Shown: one piece after another, positions 50,683 through 64,000 of the stretch
Position numbering within the stretch: position 1 is the stretch's first letter
How the letters are laid out: every line of letters begins with the position of its first letter
Assembly (NCBI RefSeq): GCF_024320785.1
Contig: NZ_JANDBC010000003.1
Coordinates: 310,001-374,000 of the forward strand
DNA: 64,000 bases
From: Gracilimonas sediminicola
GTDB lineage: Bacteria; Bacteroidota; Rhodothermia; Balneolales; Balneolaceae
Direction: 5' to 3'
Position numbers and translations under genes: made by a program
Notes under the pieces: model-generated
What the model was told of the DNA's origin: nothing
What the model saw: the letters and a program-made list of their open reading frames with translations, nothing else
Databases searched by the model: none

Positions 50683-51024
50683 TTATACGTACGACTGTAT
50701 TTCCTTCGCTACGCCACGGTTATACTGAAAGGCCATGTCTTTGTAATTCACCAAATCAACAATGGTACCGATTAAGCAAAGACCTCCGGTAAAAATGTAC
50801 AGGATGCCCATCCCGATTTGATTCAATAAAAGACGATGCACACCTGCAATCAGGAAAAATCCAAGAATACAGGTAATTAAAACCGTTTGCGGGTCTTTTC
50901 TTCGTGAACGGTACACAGATGCAAACTTAGAAGCCTGTTCATCAGATAAGTCAGAAAGTAACTTCCCGACGTATAGTGCTTCGTCCCCTTCTATTTCCGG
51001 TAAATGATCTATAACGTTAGCCAT
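50683..51024 (-). CDS. TM2 domain protein
   Basis: The protein has 113 residues. A soluble ~45-residue N-terminus (ALYVGKLLSDLSDEQ, YRSRRKDP) precedes a TM2 module of two helices around a short turn (ILGFFLIAGVHRLLLNQIG and ILYIFTGGLCLIGTIVDL). It overlaps the DUF2752 gene by 8 bases. It is the last gene of the minus-strand run that follows the Pel-like cluster. TM2 proteins have no settled bacterial function. Confidence 0.88.
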   Translation of the reverse strand: MANVIDHLPEIEGDEALYVGKLLSDLSDEQASKFASVYRSRRKDPQTVLITCILGFFLIAGVHRLLLNQIGMGILYIFTGGLCLIGTIVDLVNYKDMAFQYNRGVAKEIQSYV

Positions 51025-51340
51025 GCTGTTCCTTATTCGTAGTTAGTTTTGATTCTTGATAAAGCTCTTTCCAAATGTAGATGATTCTTCCTGAGAGGAT
51101 GAAAACGGCGGCCGGTCCGGCTAAATGGGCTTGCAATGCGGATTCAAAATTTCCTCTGAATGTGTAGGATACCGAATGTCCCAATCCCTCACCGGGACAA
51201 TAATCAATGCCAATCCAATCAAAAAAGCAGAGTGAGGTTCCGGCATTTTCAGGACTCATAAGTGCGAGTAACACAAGTCCGGCACTGAACACAAACCACT
51301 CCAAATGTTTTCTTATAAAGCGCATATCCCGACTACGCAT
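51017..51340 (-). CDS. DUF2752 membrane protein
   Basis: The protein has 107 residues with about three helices. The family signature SLCFFDWIGIDYCPGEGLGH followed by RGNFESALQAHLAGP is clear. A second in-frame ATG (51325) gives a 102-residue version. It starts 17 bases after the end of the giant deacetylase/barrel gene, so it is probably in the same transcript. DUF2752 often stands next to TM2 proteins; the function is unknown. Confidence 0.85.
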   Translation of the reverse strand: MRSRDMRFIRKHLEWFVFSAGLVLLALMSPENAGTSLCFFDWIGIDYCPGEGLGHSVSYTFRGNFESALQAHLAGPAAVFILSGRIIYIWKELYQESKLTTNKEQHG

Positions 51341-51357
51341 CTTATTAGGTTAAGTTT

Positions 51358-54300
51358 CTAATTTCTGGGTCTTAACTTTCTGGGAAAGTAATGAGAAATA
51401 GTGAAGAAAAACCGATTTGATCGATACACGTCGCTGGTGGATATTTCACTTCCAATACTGACCTGCCAGAAGTTTTTGAATTTATGTTCGAGCTGAATTC
51501 TTCCTGAGTAAAAGAAGCCTTCCCTTCGTTCGTGTTTACCAAAAATCTCACCCGTAAGCTGCGTACGATAGTCAAAGGTATCGGGGTTGCGGTACCTGAA
51601 ATCAAGTCCAATACCCTGGGCAAAATATTGATCGGGGGTGTAATATGGTATACCTGATAAGAAGCTTTCTGTAGCATCGGCATAACTCACTTCACCCACG
51701 GGCCTGACCCTGAATTTGGTCTCCATCAAATCAAGTAACAGTCGGATTTGCCCTCCATACCTGAACACATCATTGGTATAATATTTCCCGGTTGCTGACA
51801 AGGCGCTTACTACATTCCCATTAAACAAATAATCCTGCCGGTACAGTTGAAGCTGTGCCTGGTAGTAGTCGTTTTGGAGTGAAGTGGATGTGAGCTCTGC
51901 CCCTCCGGTTATCTCAATGGAAGTAAATGCGGAGTCCTTGGTGAAACTCATCCCAATAAGCCCTTCAGGAATGAATTCACTGCCATCAACCAGAACGGTT
52001 GGGCCAATTCGAAATTCAAACTGTTGATTATCAGATCGATGCGTAAACTGATATCCTCCACCCTGGTAATTTAGCGTTCCATTTCCGGTGAGGTTATCAT
52101 CTGAAAACACCAGGTACTCTGATTTGAAGGTATGCGTGTTTTGTCTTCGGTTCCCAAATTGAACAGAAAGCCCACCACGGGCAAAGGTGTTATCGAAGTT
52201 ATCGTTTCTGTATTCTCCAAACAGCGATGTTCTTACGCCTTCTGTCCATCGGTATTCGTCCCTGATTGACTTTCGCTGGTCGGGATCAAAGAACTTCGGG
52301 TATTTTCGAAAGAAGCTTTTTTTCTCTTCATACGGTTTAAAGCCAATTTCATTTCTGATCAGCGTATCAGCAGCCAACCCCTTTTCCCGGTTATTTTCAA
52401 AGAGCGGATATAAAGTGTTGTACGACTGCTCTTCAAATCCTTCATAAAATAAATTTGAGCCAACAAAAGAGCGGAGATCAGCATAATCAGGATTGTTGGT
52501 TATCAGCTCGTTGGCTTTGGCCAGATAAAGTGCATCCAGATTGAGCTGTGAAAGCCAAAATAGCTTTAACTGTTCTTCAAAGTCCGGAGCGTTATTGGCC
52601 CAGAACAAAGCTTTCTCATACTCATTGGCTTCAAAACCGTACATGAGCGCTAAGTTGGAAGCAAACGGGGTTAGTTGATCATAGGCGTAATCGGGAAACT
52701 CTTCCACAAGAGCCATCGTGCTGTCCGGGCTTGCATAATAAATAGATCGCTGAACGGTGAAGGCATAAAGGGAATCTGTTTGAGGACGCATATTCAACAG
52801 TTTCAGCAGATTCTTTTTCATTTCCGGCCAGTTCTCCTGCGATTCGATGGACTTAGTATAACTCAGCAACGTCTCATAGTCATCAGGGGCAAGCTCTAAG
52901 GCTCTCAATCTCCATCGGCGCTCAAAGTCTTCACCAAAAAGTCCGAGTTCGGCTACAACCTGATTCTTAAGCGCTATAACTTTACCCGAACGATGCGCCT
53001 CCCATAATCTTTCCAGGAAAAGTTCAGCCCTGGACTGCATCCCCTCCCAGCCGTAGTAAGTTAACAGGCGATCAATATCATCCTGAACCCATACTTCATT
53101 CCGCAATAATCGATCTTCAAGAATATCTATGGCTCGGGAAATCTGATTAAATTCAACGCTTAAAGAAATGAGCTGCTCTTGATTTGCAACCGTAGGATTT
53201 TGTCGCCACGCCCTAACAGCGTCTTCCATCCGAGTATCCCGCCAATTCCCTGAATCGAAGGCAGAACCATCGGATGCAATGAGGCTATACTGACGAAAGT
53301 TATCGGTTTGATCCCTGACCAGGCTATTGACGAACTGCCGGTCGTAGTAAAATCTCTTGTCAAAATTGGGGACGAAAAACACATCAGATGATACTTTAAA
53401 CTGATATAGATATCCATCCCAAATTCCGGTTCTGCTGTAGCTCAGCCCTTGTTTGTTCAAAGTACTCTCAACTTCCCTCACTTGCTCTTGGGTAACGTAC
53501 ATGTACCAGTGTGTGTTATCATTTGGAAACTTGGGTACGTAATTATTTCTGTATCCCGTGTTAATTTTGATGGACGGTCCGTCTAAGGAATAGTTGGAAA
53601 GCCGCTGCCTCCAGTCTTCGGTTTTTTTACCCCCCAGTGTTGCTGCTACAAATCTATTATTGGGATAATGACGGTACGTATGTTTGACTCTTCGGCTCAA
53701 AAGCTGATATAAACCATACCCATATTCCGGATCTGATTTCCAGCCAAGCCCCAAAGGATTTCGACTCGAGAATTCATCTTCTCTTCGTTGAGTAACCTGA
53801 AATACATCATCGGGATGCACAAAATGATTCCAGATTCCGGTAAGCAGTTGCAAGCCATGTTGATCCATCAGGGAATTTTCATTCATAGTAAAACCACTGC
53901 TTATCCGTGGATAATTGAATAAAGCCGTAGGAGCATAAGGATCGGGGTCAAATTCCCGCCCCTGCCCTTCCGAACGATCTCCAAAATATAGAGAACTCAT
54001 ATATTCTATACTCGGCATACCTTTTATGATAGCCTGAATGCCGATAGAATCAATTTGATTTGTAGGAGGTACATAATTTGTTGGTAAAGGCCCCAATCCA
54101 TCAATTCTCCATCGTTTGCGAGCGGCCTGAAGAGCCGAAACCATGAAGTTCATGTTGTCCCAATCCTCGGACCACAGCGAAAAGTGATTATACCCATGAA
54201 ATGCCAGTTCGTGTCGGGTGTTCTTTATGCTGTTGGCCAGAAAAATACTCCCCTGTATGATATTGTCATTAAAGACGATGGACCCCTGCCTCCATTCCTG

Positions 54301-55299
54301 AAAGTCGAAAGGCGGAACTACATTCGCATTATAATTGAACGCGGTCATTGCTGAGTAAGTAATATCGAAAGAATCGGCTAAGGCTACCATATCCGGCCAC
54401 CAGATTTTACTTACAAATTCGGCATGTGTGACGTCATACTCTTCATCAATAGGCGGCAGCTTTTCATTATAGAGCGGTGCAGGGAAGTCATCCAGGAAAA
54501 TGGTACTCACATCGGCCACCTGGTATGGAATACCTTGCAATCCCCTCAGAATAGATGAGAAAAGAATGCCCCGATAAATCTTCCCTCCAACTACGAAACT
54601 GTTTACCGTCACAACTTCACCCAGCCCAATTTCATTCGAAATTATGAAGGGTTGATCAGGATCCGTTGCAGTACTTGCTAAAATCGAGATATCGTCGCTG
54701 AAGTCTTCCCTATACAATCCAAAATGAGGTAGCAGACCGTCGGGATTATATTGCCTATTCTGCATGCCCGGAAAAGCGTCTTCCTTTAACCGGAATCCCA
54801 CATTTATAGAATCTGCGTCAAAATTAGCATCCTGTTTAATGCCCTGCAGAAAGGAAAACCGGGGGTTATTAATCGGGCCGATAATTACAAGAGAATTCCC
54901 ACGGGTAACAAACTCAACTATCCCCTCAATCTCAGCATCCGATAACTCCTGAATACGTTCAGAAGTTACAATCAGGCTTCGTACCGACTGCGGAATGGAA
55001 AATTCCTGGGTTAAAATTCCAAAGTCGATGGTGAAGTAGGGAATTTTGGTGTAATCAAGTGCTTTCTGAACCTGCTCGGATGCCTCTGCACTGAAATCAC
55101 TTCCCTGGTTCTTAATCACCATAACCAATGGTGAGTTAGATGATACTTCAATCCCGGAAAATCCTCTGAACGAACCGTCTTGCTGGCAGCCTGATAGCAT
55201 GACTACAGAAATTACCATGAACGCCAATGCTGCGCTTTGAATAAACCTGGTAGTTCTGGTTTTTAAGTCCGGTTTGTTATTTGAAGAGTCGTGCTGCAC
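51358..55299 (-). CDS. Outer-membrane lipoprotein: deacetylase, TPR-like region and beta-barrel (PelA/PelB-like fusion)
   Basis: The protein has 1313 residues from a GTG at 55299, overlapping the preceding gene by 23 bases. A lipoprotein signal has Cys38 in LSGC. Residues ~50-260 are a DUF2194-like N-terminal region. A polysaccharide deacetylase domain follows: FLDDFPAP with Asp270-Asp271, HGYNH with His368 and His372, and a Pro-rich third motif (YVPPTN). Residues ~715-1010 are helical and TPR-like (RRWRLRALELAPDDYETLL, NAPDFEEQLKLF). From ~1015 the sequence becomes alternating aromatic strands (FGEYRNDNF, YQFTHRSDN, FRYRNPDTFDY), ending ISHYFPRK, about 300 residues, the size of the PelB barrel. 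In Pseudomonas, PelA deacetylates and PelB exports; here both seem to be on one chain. The fusion is read directly; the Pel role is inference. Confidence 0.78.
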   Translation of the reverse strand: MQHDSSNNKPDLKTRTTRFIQSAALAFMVISVVMLSGCQQDGSFRGFSGIEVSSNSPLVMVIKNQGSDFSAEASEQVQKALDYTKIPYFTIDFGILTQEFSIPQSVRSLIVTSERIQELSDAEIEGIVEFVTRGNSLVIIGPINNPRFSFLQGIKQDANFDADSINVGFRLKEDAFPGMQNRQYNPDGLLPHFGLYREDFSDDISILASTATDPDQPFIISNEIGLGEVVTVNSFVVGGKIYRGILFSSILRGLQGIPYQVADVSTIFLDDFPAPLYNEKLPPIDEEYDVTHAEFVSKIWWPDMVALADSFDITYSAMTAFNYNANVVPPFDFQEWRQGSIVFNDNIIQGSIFLANSIKNTRHELAFHGYNHFSLWSEDWDNMNFMVSALQAARKRWRIDGLGPLPTNYVPPTNQIDSIGIQAIIKGMPSIEYMSSLYFGDRSEGQGREFDPDPYAPTALFNYPRISSGFTMNENSLMDQHGLQLLTGIWNHFVHPDDVFQVTQRREDEFSSRNPLGLGWKSDPEYGYGLYQLLSRRVKHTYRHYPNNRFVAATLGGKKTEDWRQRLSNYSLDGPSIKINTGYRNNYVPKFPNDNTHWYMYVTQEQVREVESTLNKQGLSYSRTGIWDGYLYQFKVSSDVFFVPNFDKRFYYDRQFVNSLVRDQTDNFRQYSLIASDGSAFDSGNWRDTRMEDAVRAWRQNPTVANQEQLISLSVEFNQISRAIDILEDRLLRNEVWVQDDIDRLLTYYGWEGMQSRAELFLERLWEAHRSGKVIALKNQVVAELGLFGEDFERRWRLRALELAPDDYETLLSYTKSIESQENWPEMKKNLLKLLNMRPQTDSLYAFTVQRSIYYASPDSTMALVEEFPDYAYDQLTPFASNLALMYGFEANEYEKALFWANNAPDFEEQLKLFWLSQLNLDALYLAKANELITNNPDYADLRSFVGSNLFYEGFEEQSYNTLYPLFENNREKGLAADTLIRNEIGFKPYEEKKSFFRKYPKFFDPDQRKSIRDEYRWTEGVRTSLFGEYRNDNFDNTFARGGLSVQFGNRRQNTHTFKSEYLVFSDDNLTGNGTLNYQGGGYQFTHRSDNQQFEFRIGPTVLVDGSEFIPEGLIGMSFTKDSAFTSIEITGGAELTSTSLQNDYYQAQLQLYRQDYLFNGNVVSALSATGKYYTNDVFRYGGQIRLLLDLMETKFRVRPVGEVSYADATESFLSGIPYYTPDQYFAQGIGLDFRYRNPDTFDYRTQLTGEIFGKHERREGFFYSGRIQLEHKFKNFWQVSIGSEISTSDVYRSNRFFFTISHYFPRKLRPRN

Positions 55300-57334
55300 G
55301 TCCTTCCTCTGTTGGATAGATATTTCTTAAAACTCCGCCTATAGTTGATTCATCGTCCCTATTTACGATTTCATAAACAATGGCCTCTTCGGTTTCATAA
55401 TATACTCTGACTTTCCTTCCTTCAAGCTGCCGGAATGTTACCAGCCATTGCTCAATATCTCTCATTGTATTCTGAGCATCATACAAAATTCCCTGTTGAA
55501 TAGAGCCATAAGGTGGCTTTTCAACAAACAGAAAGATGCTGGCAGGTGGTACTTCCTGTACTTCCGGGCGTTGATCGTCAGGTACCATTAAATATTGCTG
55601 GTACAGGGAATCGATGACGCCGTAGTTATCCAGAAAAAACTGATAGTTCATGAAAAAGTGCCGGTTCTTAGCCAGCTCACGATCCAGTTCCGGTCCTACC
55701 GTAGCATAAGTGTAAGGTATTCGCTCATTGATGATATCGTAATAGGCGTTGAAAAAGCCGTTGGGTTCTGTTTTGGGAAGCATACTGCTTTTACGTAGCC
55801 CTCCCTGATAGGCAAACAGGAAAACCACCATACCCAACGTTATTATCGGCATGATATAAGGGGTGATTTTCTCAACAGGCTTGATAATCCATTCCAGGAA
55901 AATGAATATTGAGTACATGCTCAACCCAAAGAAAATGCAGATTAGCATCCCGTAAAAACTATTAAGCTGATCCGGATCGATATACACATATTGATAATCG
56001 AAAAACGGGGTGTACAGGTATGAAATGAATACAAAAAGCATCAGAAATACCATCTCATCCCCAATTCGTTTCTTCTTTTGAACAAATAGCCGGATCAGGA
56101 ATCCTGCAAATAAAGTTATACCCGCATAGAAATAGATCAGGCTTAATTCCTCAATGGGTACAATCAGATCTGTGGTAAAGCTGAATACCTGGGTATTAAA
56201 TAGCTGATCCTGGAAAAAAGTGCCAACGCTGAGTCCTGATACCAGGCAATAAATGATGTACGGCGCCAGCGTAAGCACATAGATTGATATCAGGTAGAGC
56301 GTGATTTTTCCAAATCGCTTGAAGAAGTACTTCTGAGGGATAGAAAGAATCCCGACTAACATAAAGGGCAACAACACCATCAAAAGCACAAAAACATTTG
56401 TGAGGCCCGTTGCCACTATTCCCATGAAAATATAGAACCAGGGCGTTTTCCCACCCGACCGTATATTACGGAGAAAGAACAGCATGGTAGGCAATGCAAA
56501 ACATAAGGAGAACGAAAGAGATGTCAGTTCAGATTCAAGCTCCATCGAAACGGGAAGAAAAAGGGTTGGAAACACCGCATAGATAAGAGCTGAAAGCAAA
56601 GCCGCTGATTGGTGCCTTCTTTTTGTAAGATCCCGCATTACCCAGAAAATGATAACGGCCAGGAAAAAGCTGATCAAAGCACCGATGATGTGCAGTATCA
56701 TTTCCGGGCTTACCTGTGTAATGGTACTGAAGAAATTGATAATGGAGTGCATTCCCTTGGGCGTGGGATAACCGGAAAAGTATTCCTGAAGGCTCAGCCC
56801 TTTTACCGCATCCAGTTCAAAATACCACACCCTGCTGAACGGTGCTGAATTCTGAATGGAGGGTATGATTCTAAGCACCGAAGCTAAAATACCTATCCCT
56901 ACAGCAGCAATGGAATATGGATTCTCTGGGTTAATGGTAGGTTTCTTAAAAATTCGTTGTTTGAGGTCGGCCCAGCTCAGGTTTTTTACTTTTTCAATAA
57001 ACAGAACATGGTTAGCTACAATGCGGTTTTCGCCCCGGTTAAAAATATCTGTTACCGTACTTCCCTCCCATTTACGTTTAAAGAAATGCACCAATAGCGG
57101 CAGCATCAAAAGACAAAAAAGAATACTGATGAAGTCATAGATATGGAGATTCACCAGCATAAAGGTTCCAATGATGATCAAACCACCTAAACCTACCCAG
57201 GAAAATACAATACGATCAATTCCCCTTTTCTTTCCGGCGTGTTCAAAAAACAAAGGGGTCACAAAACCAAACACAAAGAGGAAACTGATGGTCAGTCTGA
57301 TCACCGAGAATATGGCTTGAATGTCGTAGCTCAT
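55277..57334 (-). CDS. Polytopic membrane protein of the Pel-like operon, GT-C-like topology
   Basis: The protein has 685 residues with about 12 helices over residues ~8-510 and a soluble C-terminal ~170 residues. The first loop after helix four to five (FSRVWYFELDAVKGLSLQEYF) has acidic residues placed as in GT-C glycosyltransferases, and the multi-helix layout plus soluble tail resembles that superfamily or an O-antigen-type polymerase. I recognise no named family. It overlaps the GH114 gene as ATGA and the giant gene by 23 bases. In position it replaces the PelD/PelE membrane proteins, but it is much longer than either. Confidence 0.72.
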   Translation of the reverse strand: MSYDIQAIFSVIRLTISFLFVFGFVTPLFFEHAGKKRGIDRIVFSWVGLGGLIIIGTFMLVNLHIYDFISILFCLLMLPLLVHFFKRKWEGSTVTDIFNRGENRIVANHVLFIEKVKNLSWADLKQRIFKKPTINPENPYSIAAVGIGILASVLRIIPSIQNSAPFSRVWYFELDAVKGLSLQEYFSGYPTPKGMHSIINFFSTITQVSPEMILHIIGALISFFLAVIIFWVMRDLTKRRHQSAALLSALIYAVFPTLFLPVSMELESELTSLSFSLCFALPTMLFFLRNIRSGGKTPWFYIFMGIVATGLTNVFVLLMVLLPFMLVGILSIPQKYFFKRFGKITLYLISIYVLTLAPYIIYCLVSGLSVGTFFQDQLFNTQVFSFTTDLIVPIEELSLIYFYAGITLFAGFLIRLFVQKKKRIGDEMVFLMLFVFISYLYTPFFDYQYVYIDPDQLNSFYGMLICIFFGLSMYSIFIFLEWIIKPVEKITPYIMPIITLGMVVFLFAYQGGLRKSSMLPKTEPNGFFNAYYDIINERIPYTYATVGPELDRELAKNRHFFMNYQFFLDNYGVIDSLYQQYLMVPDDQRPEVQEVPPASIFLFVEKPPYGSIQQGILYDAQNTMRDIEQWLVTFRQLEGRKVRVYYETEEAIVYEIVNRDDESTIGGVLRNIYPTEEGRAARLFK

Positions 57335-58194
57335 GAGCTCCCGGATTTCAGGGTGTTGGCAACTGAATCGGGCTGAACGGGAAGTTCACTCAAACCAATA
57401 TTACTAATAAAATATGGGCGCCCTAAAGTATCCAGGCGAGCTTTGATTTGCCTTCTTTTGGTATCAGAATCAGCAAAACCTACAATAAAGTACGGCTTAC
57501 CACTTTGGGTGGAATAGTGGTTCAAATATTCAAGCCGGTCGTTGAATTCTGCAGCAGACCGTATCCGGTACTTCTTATTCTCAAAGTCATAGTCGGATGC
57601 GAGGGCCTCAGTTAAAAAAGCGTCAACATCATCGCCGGTTTCTTCCAGTAAAAAAGCTCCCGCATTCTGAATGATTGACAATCCGGGGTATCGCTGCCTG
57701 ATTCCCTCGATCAGCTGAACCATGTAGGGTTGTAAATGAGCACGGTCCGTGGTGGGAGCTACAGCATCAACGGTATCGAGGAACAGACCATCTATCCCTT
57801 TTTCCGTGATAGCAGGCAAAACTTCTGTTAAAATGACCCGCCGGGCTTCAGTACTTTCCAGGTCGATAAAAAAACTATTCCAGTTTTCATTTTTCCCCAG
57901 GAAACCGATTTCGGCTAAACGGGGATAATACCAGCGGTTGGTATCCACTTCTCCAAGTGTGACATAGGCAATGACCTTAGTGCCGGTGGCACGTAAAGCC
58001 TCCATTTCTTCTTTGGTATAAAAGTCGGGCTCTATAATTACCATGCGGTAATTCTGCACCTGTTCCGGTGTTACCTTAGCATAACAAACGCCAAATGGAG
58101 TGTGATCTGTCATAGAAAAGGAAGCCTGTTTTGTGTTGTTACACTGCGTGAAAAGAAGTGCCATTATGCAAATTGCCGAAAACTTCAGTTTCAT
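57331..58194 (-). CDS. GH114-like endo-alpha-1,4-polygalactosaminidase lipoprotein
   Basis: The protein has 287 residues with a lipoprotein signal (Cys18 in LLFTQC). The TIM-barrel blocks of the GH114/PelA-hydrolase family are clear: VIAYVTLGEVDTNRWYYP, ENWNSFFIDL, KGIDGLFLDTVDAV and IIQNAGAFLL. Known members cut alpha-1,4-linked galactosamine polymers, the chemistry of Pel. In Pseudomonas this domain is the N-terminus of PelA; here it is a separate lipoprotein coupled by ATGA to genes on both sides. It may trim or release polymer in the periplasm. Confidence 0.85.
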   Translation of the reverse strand: MKLKFSAICIMALLFTQCNNTKQASFSMTDHTPFGVCYAKVTPEQVQNYRMVIIEPDFYTKEEMEALRATGTKVIAYVTLGEVDTNRWYYPRLAEIGFLGKNENWNSFFIDLESTEARRVILTEVLPAITEKGIDGLFLDTVDAVAPTTDRAHLQPYMVQLIEGIRQRYPGLSIIQNAGAFLLEETGDDVDAFLTEALASDYDFENKKYRIRSAAEFNDRLEYLNHYSTQSGKPYFIVGFADSDTKRRQIKARLDTLGRPYFISNIGLSELPVQPDSVANTLKSGSS

Positions 58195-59816
58195 TCTTCA
58201 ACACCTAACCTCATACATTCTTGCCAGCCCAAAGCTTGTAAAAGCTGAATGGCCGTTGGAATCAATACCATATCAAATTCCACATCGGCACGTTCCATCA
58301 GGTTTTTCGATAATAACTCGAGCCATTCTTCGTCGGTTTTGGAGTCATCACCGGCATACGTTTCTACGAAATCCACAACAAACTCGAACAAGCCGATAAT
58401 TTTCCCGGTCCACGGAATGCTTTCAGACTTCAATCCGGAAGGAGAGCCATTTCCGTTTACCCATTCGTGGTGAGTTTTTATTCCCTCAAGCACGTCGCGG
58501 TGTATCGAGAGCTGCTCAACCAAATTGGCTCCAATAAGAGGGTGCGAAAGCTCACCTCCAATTGTTTTACCCGGCTCAATACTTATAGCCCCCACATAAC
58601 CGATGTCATGAAGCTTGGCTGTTTTGGTGATGATCTCCATCTCGTCATCTTCAAGCCCAAAAAACATTCCGAACCGCTGCACAAAAGCAACCATTCGTGG
58701 GGTGTGAAAACGGGTCTTCTCCCGGCTTTGTTCGATGGCGCGTAACATTTTGTAATACCCATCCATAAGCTGATCTGAGAAAAGCTCATTTTTATAGCGG
58801 TAGTCAAAGAGGTTAGCCAGCGACAACCCTATTTCTTCCAACAATCCTGTAACATCAAGCTTCCCTGCATTGTCGGTTTTCTCAACCATTAGGAAACCGG
58901 ACTGATGCTCTCCGTTAAAATACTCAACATCAACCTGCTTGCCCCACTGTTTTAGAAACTCTTGTCCGAATTCAGTAGCTGAGAGCTTGTCGTCACTATC
59001 TTTAAAGAGGGCTTTTTCTCCTTCAGCCGTAAAATAACCGGCTACTTTTTCCTTCATCCCGATGGATGCAAGCAGCTTATGTCCGCCCGGGGTGAACTCT
59101 ACGATGCAACCGGATTCTACTTTTCTGCCATGGACTACATACCTCAGCATAATCTGGGCGATCCCTTCCGTATTCAGCTTCCCGCTGCCTAAATCCGAAA
59201 CCACATCGTCGATTTTCTGTTCATATTCGCGCTGTGGGTTACTCTCTTCATCATCGAGGGTGATGAGCCAGTTGGCCAGTAATCTCCCCACAATCGATAG
59301 TTTTGGGGTGATTTGATCGGGGCTTTTTGTGTACGGACCTGCGCAGTATATCCCCCACTGTTCTCCATCCTTTTTAAACAAGGGAATATGTTCGCACTGT
59401 CCGATGGAATGTGAGGTTATCCCTTGCTCTTTAAACACCTCATCCATGCTCATTTTCTTTTCCAGGTTCTGCAACTGGTACTCGAAATCTTTTATGTATT
59501 CTTTCTGCTGTGGTGATTGTTTGTGAGGTTCTTGTTCTTCGTTTTTATCACGTAGTATGTTCCTGGTAAGCACATGTCGCCGGTCGAGCACCAATTTATC
59601 GCCCTGCAATCTATACACAAAATGTACGGGTGCCCGGTACAGCAAATCCATCCAGTTTACGATATCGCCGAATGAGGGACTTTTTTTTCGCGACAGGTGT
59701 TCAGCCGATAACTCCCAGAATTCAAGCTGTTGCTCGGTTCCGAAAGCCTCCATTGAGAAAGCCTTGCTAAGCCGATTGCCCACAGTATGTATGTAACTTC
59801 GAACGTCTTTAATCAT
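58191..59816 (-). CDS. GAF-like plus variant HD-GYP-like regulatory protein
   Basis: The protein has 541 residues, soluble. Residues ~1-200 and ~210-340 look like GAF-type sensor regions. Residues ~365-540 form an HD domain of the HD-GYP pattern: HDIGY (His403-Asp404), HPLIG (His425) and HHEWVNGNGSP (His449, His450), then GLKSESIPWTGKI. The signature GYP is GSP (457-459) and the usual Lys after HDxG is Tyr407, so activity on c-di-GMP is uncertain. It lies exactly where Pel clusters carry PelD, the c-di-GMP receptor. It starts 9 bases after the PelG-like gene and overlaps GH114. Confidence 0.8.
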   Translation of the reverse strand: MIKDVRSYIHTVGNRLSKAFSMEAFGTEQQLEFWELSAEHLSRKKSPSFGDIVNWMDLLYRAPVHFVYRLQGDKLVLDRRHVLTRNILRDKNEEQEPHKQSPQQKEYIKDFEYQLQNLEKKMSMDEVFKEQGITSHSIGQCEHIPLFKKDGEQWGIYCAGPYTKSPDQITPKLSIVGRLLANWLITLDDEESNPQREYEQKIDDVVSDLGSGKLNTEGIAQIMLRYVVHGRKVESGCIVEFTPGGHKLLASIGMKEKVAGYFTAEGEKALFKDSDDKLSATEFGQEFLKQWGKQVDVEYFNGEHQSGFLMVEKTDNAGKLDVTGLLEEIGLSLANLFDYRYKNELFSDQLMDGYYKMLRAIEQSREKTRFHTPRMVAFVQRFGMFFGLEDDEMEIITKTAKLHDIGYVGAISIEPGKTIGGELSHPLIGANLVEQLSIHRDVLEGIKTHHEWVNGNGSPSGLKSESIPWTGKIIGLFEFVVDFVETYAGDDSKTDEEWLELLSKNLMERADVEFDMVLIPTAIQLLQALGWQECMRLGVEE

Positions 59817-59825
59817 AGGGATACC

Positions 59826-61460
59826 TCAATATGCAGAGTAATAGAAATAATCGAGATGTTTAAAAAATCTTTTTGCCAAAATTCCGGTGGATATGCTAAA
59901 TACCAGCGATCCGGCGATGAGGCCAATCACAGCATATTCTAAACCAAAAATACGGCTGCACAAAAATCCGGTTATAAAATTCACGAATAGTGAACCAATC
60001 ATGGCATACATCACCATTTCGGGCCGATTCAGTGTAAAAAAGAACAGGCTGTTCAACAATCCATATATCAAAAATAAATAGCCAATGCTTGCCAGCCAAA
60101 AGACCTTAAAGGTCATTGGATTGGCGAAAAAATCTGAAATCTCGGGTACTTCATTTTCAAAAATACGCAGGCTCAATACTCCATAATATGTAATCAGGAT
60201 TGATATACCGCCTACCACCAAAAGCAACAAAATCTGTTTGATATAGAATCTTCGAAAAAAGCGGTTGAACAGTTTAAGCTTTGAAATAACGGCTTTCTTC
60301 TGAGCCGGAATCAGGTTCAGTGAAAAAGAGTGCACGCTATACTCAAGCATGGCAATGGTAATTACCAGGCTAATGAGCGCCCAGTCCATGCCCAACTCAT
60401 ACGGAGTATTAAACCAAATAATGTATTCAGGAGGAGGTGGCCCGGCCGACCATGCCATTAACCGATCCATAAACAGGAAGGTGAAGTAGCAAAATCCATA
60501 CACAAAGTAGCGGTAGGTATTGTAATAACTTACCTCACCCTCCGGCAATGATTGCTTAAAGAGTTCTTGGCGAAGAGCCCGGATCTTCAGCTTATAATAA
60601 ATGTATGCATAAGCGGAGATTATGACGGTAGCCGTTAAAATCCCTAACCATTGGGACAGGTAAATGCCCAGTCCGGCAAAATCCATCCCGAATATCACGA
60701 AAATGGTACCTGATACAATTCCCATTAAAATCATAAACCGCTGCTCGGTCGCAAATAGTACGGATGCCGAAAGTAAAAGCAACGAGATCAGCACCATGTA
60801 AATCATGGACAGAATGATGAGCTGTTGCGGGTAAAAGGGCAAGATCAGGTTAATCCCAAAAATGGCTAAAGCGGCAATGAACACAAAGGGAATCCCAATT
60901 TTCATCACGGCGATGGTAGCTTTTGCAGCCAGGTAATAATTTCCCTCTCCCTTATACTTGGACACCAGCCGGCCCAACGTTTGAATAAATCCACCGGTTA
61001 GAATAAAGGAAACCATGGTACCCAATGCTACTACGGTTGCCTGTGCCTCATTAAAATCAAACCAGGCCCATAAGGCGTACTCAAATACAATAATGGCGAT
61101 GATTTGTGAAAGCATGGGCATGGAAAAAACCATTCCCGCCGTATAATGCTTCGCAAATAGCTTGAGCGTACGCCCTATCCCTCCAAACTTAAACTCGTCG
61201 ACATCTTCCGTAGCATCCCCTGCAGCTTCTTTTTCCTTCTTTTTAATCCGGTTGTACACTTCGTTGCCGAGGTCAAAAACAGAATCGTAGCCATAATCGG
61301 TTTTAGCATCTACATTTCGAACCCCAAGGGATTCGATGGTAGCGGCTACAGCCCATTTACTGATTGGGTTACCGATCAGCTCATATACCCGCTCTGTAAT
61401 ATCCTGAACGGCTTCAGCCTTTGCAGGACGTTCAAGTTGTATTTGATCATGCTCAGGCAT
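59826..61460 (-). CDS. pelG: PelG-like polysaccharide transporter
   Basis: The protein has 544 residues from the ATG at 61460 (a TTG two codons upstream is less likely). About 12 membrane helices follow a ~90-residue soluble N-terminus (ITERVYELIGNPISKW, GYDSVFDLGNEVYNRIKKKEK). The core begins FGGIGRTLKLF, resembling from memory the GIGFELRKL start of PelG, and contains the FLFMDRLMAW and ATEQRFMILMGIVSG segments typical of these MOP-type transporters. It overlaps the PelF-like gene by 8 bases. The transport role follows from the family; the extension may dock the synthase. Confidence 0.8.
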   Translation of the reverse strand: MPEHDQIQLERPAKAEAVQDITERVYELIGNPISKWAVAATIESLGVRNVDAKTDYGYDSVFDLGNEVYNRIKKKEKEAAGDATEDVDEFKFGGIGRTLKLFAKHYTAGMVFSMPMLSQIIAIIVFEYALWAWFDFNEAQATVVALGTMVSFILTGGFIQTLGRLVSKYKGEGNYYLAAKATIAVMKIGIPFVFIAALAIFGINLILPFYPQQLIILSMIYMVLISLLLLSASVLFATEQRFMILMGIVSGTIFVIFGMDFAGLGIYLSQWLGILTATVIISAYAYIYYKLKIRALRQELFKQSLPEGEVSYYNTYRYFVYGFCYFTFLFMDRLMAWSAGPPPPEYIIWFNTPYELGMDWALISLVITIAMLEYSVHSFSLNLIPAQKKAVISKLKLFNRFFRRFYIKQILLLLVVGGISILITYYGVLSLRIFENEVPEISDFFANPMTFKVFWLASIGYLFLIYGLLNSLFFFTLNRPEMVMYAMIGSLFVNFITGFLCSRIFGLEYAVIGLIAGSLVFSISTGILAKRFFKHLDYFYYSAY

Positions 61461-63036
61461 ACTCAAACTCCTCTTCTTTCACATGGTCTAACAACTTCAG
61501 CACCGATTTTACCTGAACACGCTCTTTCCAGGGCGTACGTTCGTTGGCGGCGAGCTTCATATAGGAGTCGTAATACGCATTCACCGATTTTTCGGTGGTG
61601 AATGTAAGCAAAACACGGTCCCGGGCTTTCCTGCCCAGCTCAAGCCGTAAATCATCATCATTCAGCAATGTAACCACCCCTTTTGCAATATCCTGCGGAT
61701 CGCGGGGCTTGCATAAAATTCCACACCCTTCAAGAGCATCCCGTATCCCTCCCACGTCGGTCGCCACAACCGGACGGGCACAGCTCATTGATTCAATTAC
61801 GGTGTACGGGAACCCTTCCGAGATGGAAGTTAAAATGGAGATATCGCCTTCATTGAAAATCATACTGGGTTGATCGTGGAATCCCCCAAAATGAAAAGTA
61901 TCCTCCAGCTGCAGTTCCGAAACCAATTCCTTACATCTGGCTACATATTCTTTATCCACTTCAAGACTACCATATACCTTGAATTGTACCTCCGGGATCT
62001 CTTTTCGAACAATGTCAGCAGCTCGAATCATCGTCTCGATATCTTTTAAGGGAAAAACCTGGGCTACGGCGATCACGGTTGGAACGCCCTGTGTCTGCCT
62101 GGGTTTTGGAGTTGGTTTAAACAGATCCGTATTCACCCCGTTGTAGATAGGTATTATATTTTCCTCAGCTGCCTCAAACCGTTTTTCCCACTCCTTGTTA
62201 GCCGTTGTAACCGGCGAAATCTGGTCGGCCGTATAATACACCGCCCGGCTTACCATAGTTGAAAGATCAACAAGTAATTTTTTTGAAAAGAAAGGCATAT
62301 CGGCCTGCCCTACGTTGATCAACCGCTCCCGCATATATACCCCGTGATCGGTTACCATACTTGGGATGCCTTTTTCATATTTAGCGGCAATAGAGATTAA
62401 TGCCGGAAAACCGGCCAGGGTTGCATGGGTAACATCTATTTCATCAGAAATGGGTGCCGCAACAGGCATTAAAAAATGATACAACCAGCGCATACCAAAG
62501 GTAATGTCAAATACCCGGGGCTGTTCGTTATACGACAAATCAGACGCTTCAAAATTGTTAATGAGCGACTGTTTAAACCCGGTCCACAATAAAGGCTGCC
62601 TCAGGGTTTGTTTGTAGTCGTAGTATTGAAAGTATTTCCAAAGCCCATACAGGATATCACTGATGCGCTTTACATCGGTATAGGGATCAAAAAGGCATTC
62701 GATGAAGTCTTCAAAAATAGGCTTGAAATAGGTGTTGACGACCTTCTTGGATACCCGCGACTTCTTTTCAATTTGATAAGAAAACGGACGGCGGTCGTCG
62801 TAATAGTCTGAGGGCTCATCAACTCCCCACAGTGATATGTGGGTTATCCTTCGTATGTTTTCAGGCAGTCGATACCGGGTTTCAACATAGGGATTACCGG
62901 TAATGGCCAACAGTTCAAAATCTACCTTCTCTACCAGCTCTGTGCACAAGATATGCGACCATGTAGACACACCGCCACCGCTGTAAGGGTATGAACCTTC
63001 TGTCTCGAACAGCACATATGGTTTGTCTTTGCTCAC
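61453..63036 (-). CDS. pelF: PelF-like glycosyltransferase (GT4)
   Basis: The protein has 527 residues from a GTG at 63036. The N-terminal domain has FETEGSYPYSGGGVSTW, the PelF-type opening, and TDHGVYMRERL at 229-239, a strong family mark. The C-terminal GT-B half shows PIYNGVNTDLF, the VAQVFPLKDIETM linker and the E-x7-E block ISEGFPYTVIESM. In Pel synthesis PelF polymerises UDP-GalNAc in the cytoplasm. It overlaps the second glycosyltransferase as GTGA. Confidence 0.87.
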   Translation of the reverse strand: MSKDKPYVLFETEGSYPYSGGGVSTWSHILCTELVEKVDFELLAITGNPYVETRYRLPENIRRITHISLWGVDEPSDYYDDRRPFSYQIEKKSRVSKKVVNTYFKPIFEDFIECLFDPYTDVKRISDILYGLWKYFQYYDYKQTLRQPLLWTGFKQSLINNFEASDLSYNEQPRVFDITFGMRWLYHFLMPVAAPISDEIDVTHATLAGFPALISIAAKYEKGIPSMVTDHGVYMRERLINVGQADMPFFSKKLLVDLSTMVSRAVYYTADQISPVTTANKEWEKRFEAAEENIIPIYNGVNTDLFKPTPKPRQTQGVPTVIAVAQVFPLKDIETMIRAADIVRKEIPEVQFKVYGSLEVDKEYVARCKELVSELQLEDTFHFGGFHDQPSMIFNEGDISILTSISEGFPYTVIESMSCARPVVATDVGGIRDALEGCGILCKPRDPQDIAKGVVTLLNDDDLRLELGRKARDRVLLTFTTEKSVNAYYDSYMKLAANERTPWKERVQVKSVLKLLDHVKEEEFEYA

Positions 63037-64000
63037 TCTTCTGCAGCTTCCTCCACCCGGCTCATATTCATCATTAATGCCTCATAGTCAGAAAAAATAT
63101 GTTCCCAGGTATGATTTTCTTTTACCCGGTCAAAACGGGTATTAACGTACCGATTAAAATGTTGCCGGTTATTCCAAAGCCTTGTTATTTTTCCCGCCAG
63201 GCTTTCCAAAGAAGAACCGGGGGACGATACAAGACCATATTTCTCGGTTAAATCACCTACACGAAACCCAACGGGTAACGCCTTATGAGCTAAAGCCTCT
63301 AACATTACCAGTGGCTGAGATTCGTTGTGGCTGGTTATCGACAAAAAATCAAAATCACTAAAAAAGTTTTTGGCTGGCTGGTTCCAAATACATTCCACTT
63401 CCGGATAATCCCTGCAAACAGATCTAACCTGCTTTTCAAGCTCGTTTTCATTGGCATCACTTAAAAGCATTCGAAATTTAGGAGTGATACTTTGCCCTCT
63501 GAACCCATCCACCAACTCAAAAAAAGCAAGTGGATTCTTCATTTCTGCGCATCGCCCCACCCAACCAATTACCGGCCGATCCGCTCTGCTTTTCTCCGAT
63601 CTGAGCCAGGAAGCCGGGATTCCGTTGGGGATATATTTGATGTCCGTTGCGCCCAATTCTTTTTGATATGGAATATTCGATTCGGAAACCGTAACCACTT
63701 GCTCGGCATTCTTATAAGTGTATAAAGCAAGTTCTTTGAAAGAGGACATCATATTGATTTTATCACGGCTGCCTTCTGGAATTTTATATCCGCATTCCAG
63801 CGCAACCGCTCCCATTTCAATCTCCTTCCAGTAAATGGCATGTTCTGTCAATAGAAGCGGCGTGTCTGTTTGATTAGCAAATCTACTACCCAGCCACCCG
63901 GCAAAACCGGTATTGGTTACATGTACAAGATCAAAATCTGAATCCGAAAGTGTATAGCTCGACAACGACTGATTGTACCAATGTTCCAGGTAAGCCGAAG
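63033..64000 (-). CDS. Second PelF-like glycosyltransferase, partial (5' end outside window)
   Basis: The open frame continues past base 64000 without a start; the in-frame TTG at 63965 is internal because residues upstream (AYLEHWYNQ) are also coherent. The visible 322 codons include LLLTEHAIYWKEIEMG, matching the PelF mark of its neighbour, then KYIPNGIP, VIGWVGRCAEMKNPL as the linker, and SHNESQPLVMLEALA as the donor-site E-x7-E. It overlaps the next gene by 4 bases (GTGA). Two such enzymes in tandem suggest a heteropolymer or a primer/extender pair. Confidence 0.82.
   Translation of the reverse strand, partial: SAYLEHWYNQSLSSYTLSDSDFDLVHVTNTGFAGWLGSRFANQTDTPLLLTEHAIYWKEIEMGAVALECGYKIPEGSRDKINMMSSFKELALYTYKNAEQVVTVSESNIPYQKELGATDIKYIPNGIPASWLRSEKSRADRPVIGWVGRCAEMKNPLAFFELVDGFRGQSITPKFRMLLSDANENELEKQVRSVCRDYPEVECIWNQPAKNFFSDFDFLSITSHNESQPLVMLEALAHKALPVGFRVGDLTEKYGLVSSPGSSLESLAGKITRLWNNRQHFNRYVNTRFDRVKENHTWEHIFSDYEALMMNMSRVEEAAEE

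Follow-up and report, generated by a model that had tools for sequence, protein, structure and literature searches.

A run of minus-strand genes at one end of the window (the whole 64,000-nucleotide stretch of Gracilimonas sediminicola DNA analysed here, G000:C3:310001-374000) probably encodes a Pel-like, synthase-dependent exopolysaccharide operon that would build, trim and secrete an amino-sugar polymer for biofilms. A sequence-only reading of this DNA had proposed a rearranged Pel-like system, and that proposal stands because the operon combines a PelF-family protein, a PelG-like protein recognised through its relatives, a PelA-type hydrolase and a PelADA/CE26-type deacetylase in conserved synteny. 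Judged from these parts, the system should work in a Pel-like manner. It is not classed as canonical Pel because the canonical PelA architecture, PelD and a c-di-GMP supply were sought and not found. The product is likely to be a GalNAc/GalN polymer.

Gene layout and distribution

Nine minus-strand ORFs that overlap by 4–23 bp or are separated by short gaps occupy positions 50683-64000 (Table 1). All nine genes of the sequence-only reading are real, with the first cut by the window edge, but they are not the whole operon. Upstream on the same strand lie the complete GT4a gene (396 aa), a gene for a 311-aa response regulator and one for a 380-aa histidine kinase with a REC-HisKA-HATPase domain plan. 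The DUF2752 and TM2-domain proteins at the other end are peripheral; their genes lie downstream of the core in some Balneolaceae loci only.

Table 1. Operon genes within the window, in window positions.
Feature	Position	Strand	Evidence
GT4a, second GT4/DUF3492 glycosyltransferase	63033..64000, cut by window edge; complete 396 aa at L001:15034-16224	-	PF11997 1.7e-30 (full protein)
PelF-family GT4 glycosyltransferase, 527 aa, presumed polymerase	61453..63036	-	NF038011 161.1 bits; PF11997 1.9e-40
PelG-like multi-TM protein, 546 aa, presumed inner-membrane translocator	59826..61466	-	Family-level PF16933 and hhalign
Degenerate HD-GYP regulator, 541 aa	58191..59816	-	PF13487 2.4e-9; PDB HD-GYP enzymes 7.8e-13
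PelA-type (GH166-like) hydrolase, 287 aa, lipoprotein-like N terminus	57331..58194	-	PDB PelA 4.3e-24
Predicted GT-C-fold membrane protein, 685 aa, C-terminal soluble domain	55277..57334	-	AF2 model, pLDDT 86; structural comparison
CE26 deacetylase-TPR-barrel exporter fusion, 1313 aa	51358..55299	-	PF09960 2.7e-57; PDB 9zau 5e-60; AF2 pLDDT 90
DUF2752 small membrane protein, peripheral	51017..51340	-	PF10825 1.5e-8
TM2-domain protein, peripheral	50683..51024	-	PF05154 1.6e-10

The order PelF-PelG-(HD)-GH-GT-C-(CE26-TPR-barrel) is kept on one strand in 60 of the 61 Balneolota/Bacteroidota loci with enough flanking sequence, 16 of which have the HD gene, and median intergenic gaps in the conserved core are -14 to +4 bp. 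Such constancy excludes chance, and the gene set does not break up in relatives. Within the phylum-level group, 148 genomes were sampled, and 15 of them have a PelG-like protein. Clusters of the fused type are also found in Flavobacteriaceae, Roseivirga and Cytophagales, so the supposed Balneolota-type variant is a variant with conserved synteny but is not specific to Balneolota, and a Balneolota-only reading was rejected. Related unfused sets occur in KSB1, Kryptonia and Chloroflexota. An Aliifodinibius MAG (L043:3257-7119) has a second, broken PelF/PelG/GH/GT-C set directly upstream of its intact one.

Presumed polymerase and translocator families

The identity of the PelF-like protein is borne out by its match to Pfam PF11997 and by a score of 161.1 bits against the NCBIfam PelF equivalog NF038011, which has a cut-off of 100 bits. 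In a tree of 40 proteins, the cluster PelFs all group together in a single clade (98/93), next to plasmid-borne ‘pelF’ genes from Deinococcus and Streptomyces, and GT4a places separately. A branch of 1.72 sets this clade apart from canonical PelFs, which leaves room for a different sugar. The clade lies between canonical Pel on one side and, on the other, the Deinococcus locus, with its Agd3-type deacetylase, and the Streptomyces locus, with GH135 and GH114 genes. Judged by these enzymes, both neighbouring groups are galactosamine-type systems; this favours a GalNAc/GalN product without proving it.

The plasmid loci have features of their own. In Deinococcus aquaticus (L117:7971-15955) the PelF relative accompanies an Agd3-type CBM87/CE protein, and in Streptomyces californicus (L119:5712-15146) it accompanies GH135 (Spherulin4) and GH114 genes; both sets resemble the galactosaminogalactan set of fungi. 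The protein that follows PelF in Streptomyces has an N-terminal domain of ~60 residues in common with the PelG-like family, a 715-aa Streptomyces protein has no relative in a PDB search, and tblastn with a PelG relative returned no match in plasmids.

PelG similarity is invisible in the window protein alone and emerges at family level. In single-sequence Pfam and NCBIfam searches the 546-aa protein matches neither PelG nor any other family, and its family alignment finds no relative in a PDB sequence search. Its nearest named relatives, from Balneola and Gracilimonas, are 77-79% identical. The Pfam PelG model PF16933 matches 6 of 14 members of the PelG-like family (best 9.9e-8), and no member matches Wzx/MATE (MatE) families. 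A profile of the wider family aligns with true PelG from annotated pel operons (hhalign E 7.4e-6, probability 84, 411 columns); the close-family profile A1 gives a non-significant E of 0.082. The outcome that the sequence-only reading had set against itself, that PelF and PelG would match only unrelated GT4 and Wzx families, is thus not what was found. PelF and the PelG-like protein are encoded by a single 1253-aa ORF in a Caldilineae (Chloroflexota) contig (L052:3482-7243); this naturally fused form speaks for a PelF-PelG complex. In a Fusobacterium PelG ORF (L120:9415-11733, 772 aa), a lipobox-like stretch precedes a long C-terminal repeat domain; genes for a barrel-like protein and a hydrolase come next.

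Deacetylase-exporter fusion, hydrolase and GT-C-fold protein

A deacetylase and a TPR-barrel exporter had been proposed, and both parts are found, but in a single protein. Its 1313 residues comprise a lipobox (LSGC) near the N terminus, a CE26/PelADA-like domain (~30-580), a TPR region (~660-1010) and a 16-strand beta-barrel (~1015-1313). The deacetylase part belongs to DUF2194, and its profile matches the structure of B. cereus PelADA (9zau), which was described in 2026 as the founding member of CE26 and CBM114 (PMC13254593); full-length PelA (9cgy), present in the same structure library, is not matched. PelADA catalytic/zinc residues D262, D263, H350, H354, P405, R458, H488 and D491 correspond here to D270, D271, H368, H372, P411/412, R465, H495 and D498, and they are invariant in an alignment of 9 sequences.

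Beyond the deacetylase part, the AlphaFold2 model has ~19 helices and 16 strands. Structural comparison of this exporter part gives BcsC (Z 23.6, rmsd 4.8, 318 aligned), PgaA (22.6) and PelB (22.2, tied with the other two), with porins clearly lower at Z 16 or less. The TPR-barrel profile A9 has no significant hhalign match to PelB, for which the template consisted of two near-identical sequences. Deacetylase and barrel are fused in 66 of 72 DUF2194 ORFs; the other six are cut by contig ends (L068, L074, L111) or belong to KSB1, Kryptonia or Chloroflexota, where the deacetylases lack a barrel. In Pseudomonas, PelA binds the PelB TPRs and this binding boosts PelA deacetylation (PMC12022489), which makes the fusion a Rosetta-stone match, although the deacetylase here is of the Gram-positive CE26 type. 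The fused protein of Fodinibius sediminis (L048:13722-18482) has 1586 aa, and there the hydrolase gene precedes PelF.

The hydrolase had been assigned to GH114. That assignment is significant, but PelA/GH166 is nearer: PelA structures are the best PDB matches (4.3e-24), far ahead of endo-alpha-1,4-polygalactosaminidase 6oj1 (7e-5), and the GH114 label was dropped on this ranking. Residues D140 and E196 are invariant in 13 sequences and align with D160 and E218, given as the PelA catalytic residues in PMC12022489. Beside the operon, many flavobacterial loci (e.g., L030:12851-13846, L078:7282-8304) encode an extra protein of ~335 aa whose C-terminal third contains part of a GH114 domain.

A constant member of the conserved core is the 685-aa membrane protein, which has no Pfam or NCBIfam family and no relative in a PDB sequence search with its alignment. 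Its predicted model has a GT-C fold: the comparison gives VIA Z 22.0 for yeast STT3 (rmsd 7.5, 438 aligned), 17.4 for PglB, 16.2 for AftA and 15.9 for ArnT, and the top 47 structural matches all belong to GT-C enzymes or to GPI-transamidase subunits that are GT-C-like. Members from Chloroflexota, KSB1 and Ignavibacteria have D/E as the acidic residue in the first external loop, a position that Bacteroidota members do not conserve. D453 is kept instead in 39 and D455 in 38 of 45 sequences; both are predicted from helix order to lie on the outer face. The role of the protein may be to attach a lipid-linked sugar, or it may serve purely as a scaffold. No such member appears in published Pel operon descriptions, within the sections covered.

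Regulation, known systems and alternatives

The proposed HD-GYP-like regulator is confirmed as an HD protein, the only HD_5 protein found in the host genome, but it is degenerate. The HD metal histidines are kept and the six HD ligands mostly so; equivalents of PmGH D183, E185, K225 and Y285 are replaced, and D305 is changed to E. None of 36 aligned HD sequences has an equivalent of D183 or K225, both of which are essential in PmGH (PMC4159591). An active c-di-GMP phosphodiesterase appears improbable with this catalytic D/K pair missing, and that role was dropped. The host genome has no PelD by profile (PF16963; the positive control was detected in a Caballeronia plasmid) and no detectable GGDEF protein (controls were detected). 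GGDEF is likewise absent from 12 of 14 further cluster-bearing genomes (10/10 other Balneolaceae-level genomes and two more distant ones); two cluster-bearing genomes of another family do have it. With no PelD, no detectable GGDEF and an HD-GYP protein without the D/K pair, this host is unlikely to use the customary PelD/c-di-GMP scheme, barring c-di-GMP from an undetected source. Such a loss has a precedent in streptococci, which have neither c-di-GMP nor the GGDEF domain of PelD (PMC7112168). PelC, PelD and PelE had been called unrecognisable, which holds across the genome for PelD and, by Pfam/NCBIfam, within the operon for PelC and PelE.

The operon shares with Pseudomonas pelABCDEFG a PelF-family GT4, a membrane protein distantly related to PelG, a PelA-type GH166 hydrolase, a deacetylase and a TPR plus 16-strand barrel exporter fold. 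As claimed, however, its domain distribution differs: canonical PelA unites GH166 with a CE21 deacetylase, whereas here the hydrolase is a separate protein and the deacetylase is of CE26 type and fused to the exporter. A GT-C protein, a second GT4 and a degenerate HD-GYP protein are additional, PelD and GGDEF were not found, and no PelC or PelE is recognised. Gram-positive pelDEADAFG operons (B. cereus; PMC7112168, PMC13254593) also have a stand-alone hydrolase gene, PelF, PelG and a CE26 deacetylase with a CBM114-like N-terminal domain, but here the deacetylase bears an outer-membrane exporter, PelD and PelE are not recognised and the GT-C protein is added. The cellulose and PNAG exporters BcsC and PgaA have the same TPR-barrel fold (Z 22-24) without an N-terminal deacetylase, and their synthases are unrelated to PelF. 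The GT-C protein resembles STT3/PglB, ArnT and AftA in fold but belongs to no Pfam family, and its Bacteroidota members do not conserve the first-loop Asp/Glu. Pel surveys (PMC7112194, PMC7112168, PMC12022489) report on pelB fission, on the splitting of PelA and on Gram-positive loci, and their consulted main-text sections make no mention of this architecture. Openly accessible main texts on DUF2194, CE26 and Bacteroidota Pel likewise hold no description, and the architecture is provisionally regarded as undescribed.

We suggest that, on the cytosolic side, the PelF-type GT4 would join hexosamine units, most likely of GalNAc donated by UDP-GalNAc, into a chain, and that this chain would cross the inner membrane through the PelG-like protein with the GT-C-fold protein as constant partner. 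The CE26 domain, with its conserved residues, would partly deacetylate the chain in the periplasm and could pass it on to the TPR scaffold and barrel of its own polypeptide for export. The separate GH166-like lipoprotein may cut the chain for release or clearance, and the kinase, response regulator and degenerate HD-GYP protein could take over the control exerted in Pseudomonas by PelD and c-di-GMP. Several points count against this explanation: the window PelG has no PF16933 match, profile A1 is not significant, PelB is not matched in sequence, the PelF branch is long, and the second GT4 and GT-C protein suggest a polymer more complex than Pel.

The last of these points could mean that the same architecture makes a chemically different polymer, with the PelF-like protein, GT4a and GT-C protein producing a heteropolymer or a lipid-anchored or branched glycan on part of which hydrolase and esterase act. 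The second GT4, found in Balneolaceae operons and in KSB1, Kryptonia, Ignavibacteria and Actinomycetota sets, fits this, as do the GT-C core member and the position of PelF outside its canonical clade. We nevertheless consider it rather unlikely, with flavobacterial loci keeping the core without GT4a beside PelF, PelA GH166 and CE26 catalytic residues retained, and both neighbouring PelF groups occurring with galactosamine-type enzymes. Simple lineage-specific divergence of an orthodox Pel operon, with all subunits orthologous and c-di-GMP regulation, would account for the PelF and PelG families, the hydrolase and deacetylase parts and the TPR-barrel fold. It is made very improbable by the missing PelD, by the lack of GGDEF in the host and 10/10 other Balneolaceae genomes with the locus, by CE26 in place of CE21, by the GT-C member, by the split and fused domain plan and by the non-canonical PelF. 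Least credible is a capsule or O-antigen-like locus unrelated to Pel, in which GT4 and Wzx-like proteins resemble Pel by chance. GT4 enzymes are common and the window PelG protein alone lacks a PelG match, but its family matches PelG and no Wzx/MatE, Pfam finds no Wzy, Wza or Wzz in the operon, a BcsC/PgaA/PelB-type exporter is fused to a PelADA-type deacetylase, and synteny is conserved.

The preferred reading is that of a Pel-like operon with a likely GalNAc/GalN product. We propose more tentatively, at somewhat less than even odds, that it represents a third architectural class of Pel-like machinery across Bacteroidota: a c-di-GMP-independent galactosamine-type system in which modification and outer-membrane export reside in one polypeptide and a GT-C protein is an indispensable subunit in the inner membrane, where it would use a lipid-linked donor to decorate the chain or take part in translocation. 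The range of Pel-type biofilm polymers would come to include a large phylum of ecological importance, for which the literature sections covered hold no description. Pel-like synthesis would be separated from c-di-GMP, which raises the question of what replaces PelD, and a GT-C-fold subunit would be added to a synthase-dependent exopolysaccharide system. The natural fusion makes PelA-PelB coupling, so far biochemical in Pseudomonas, testable within one protein.
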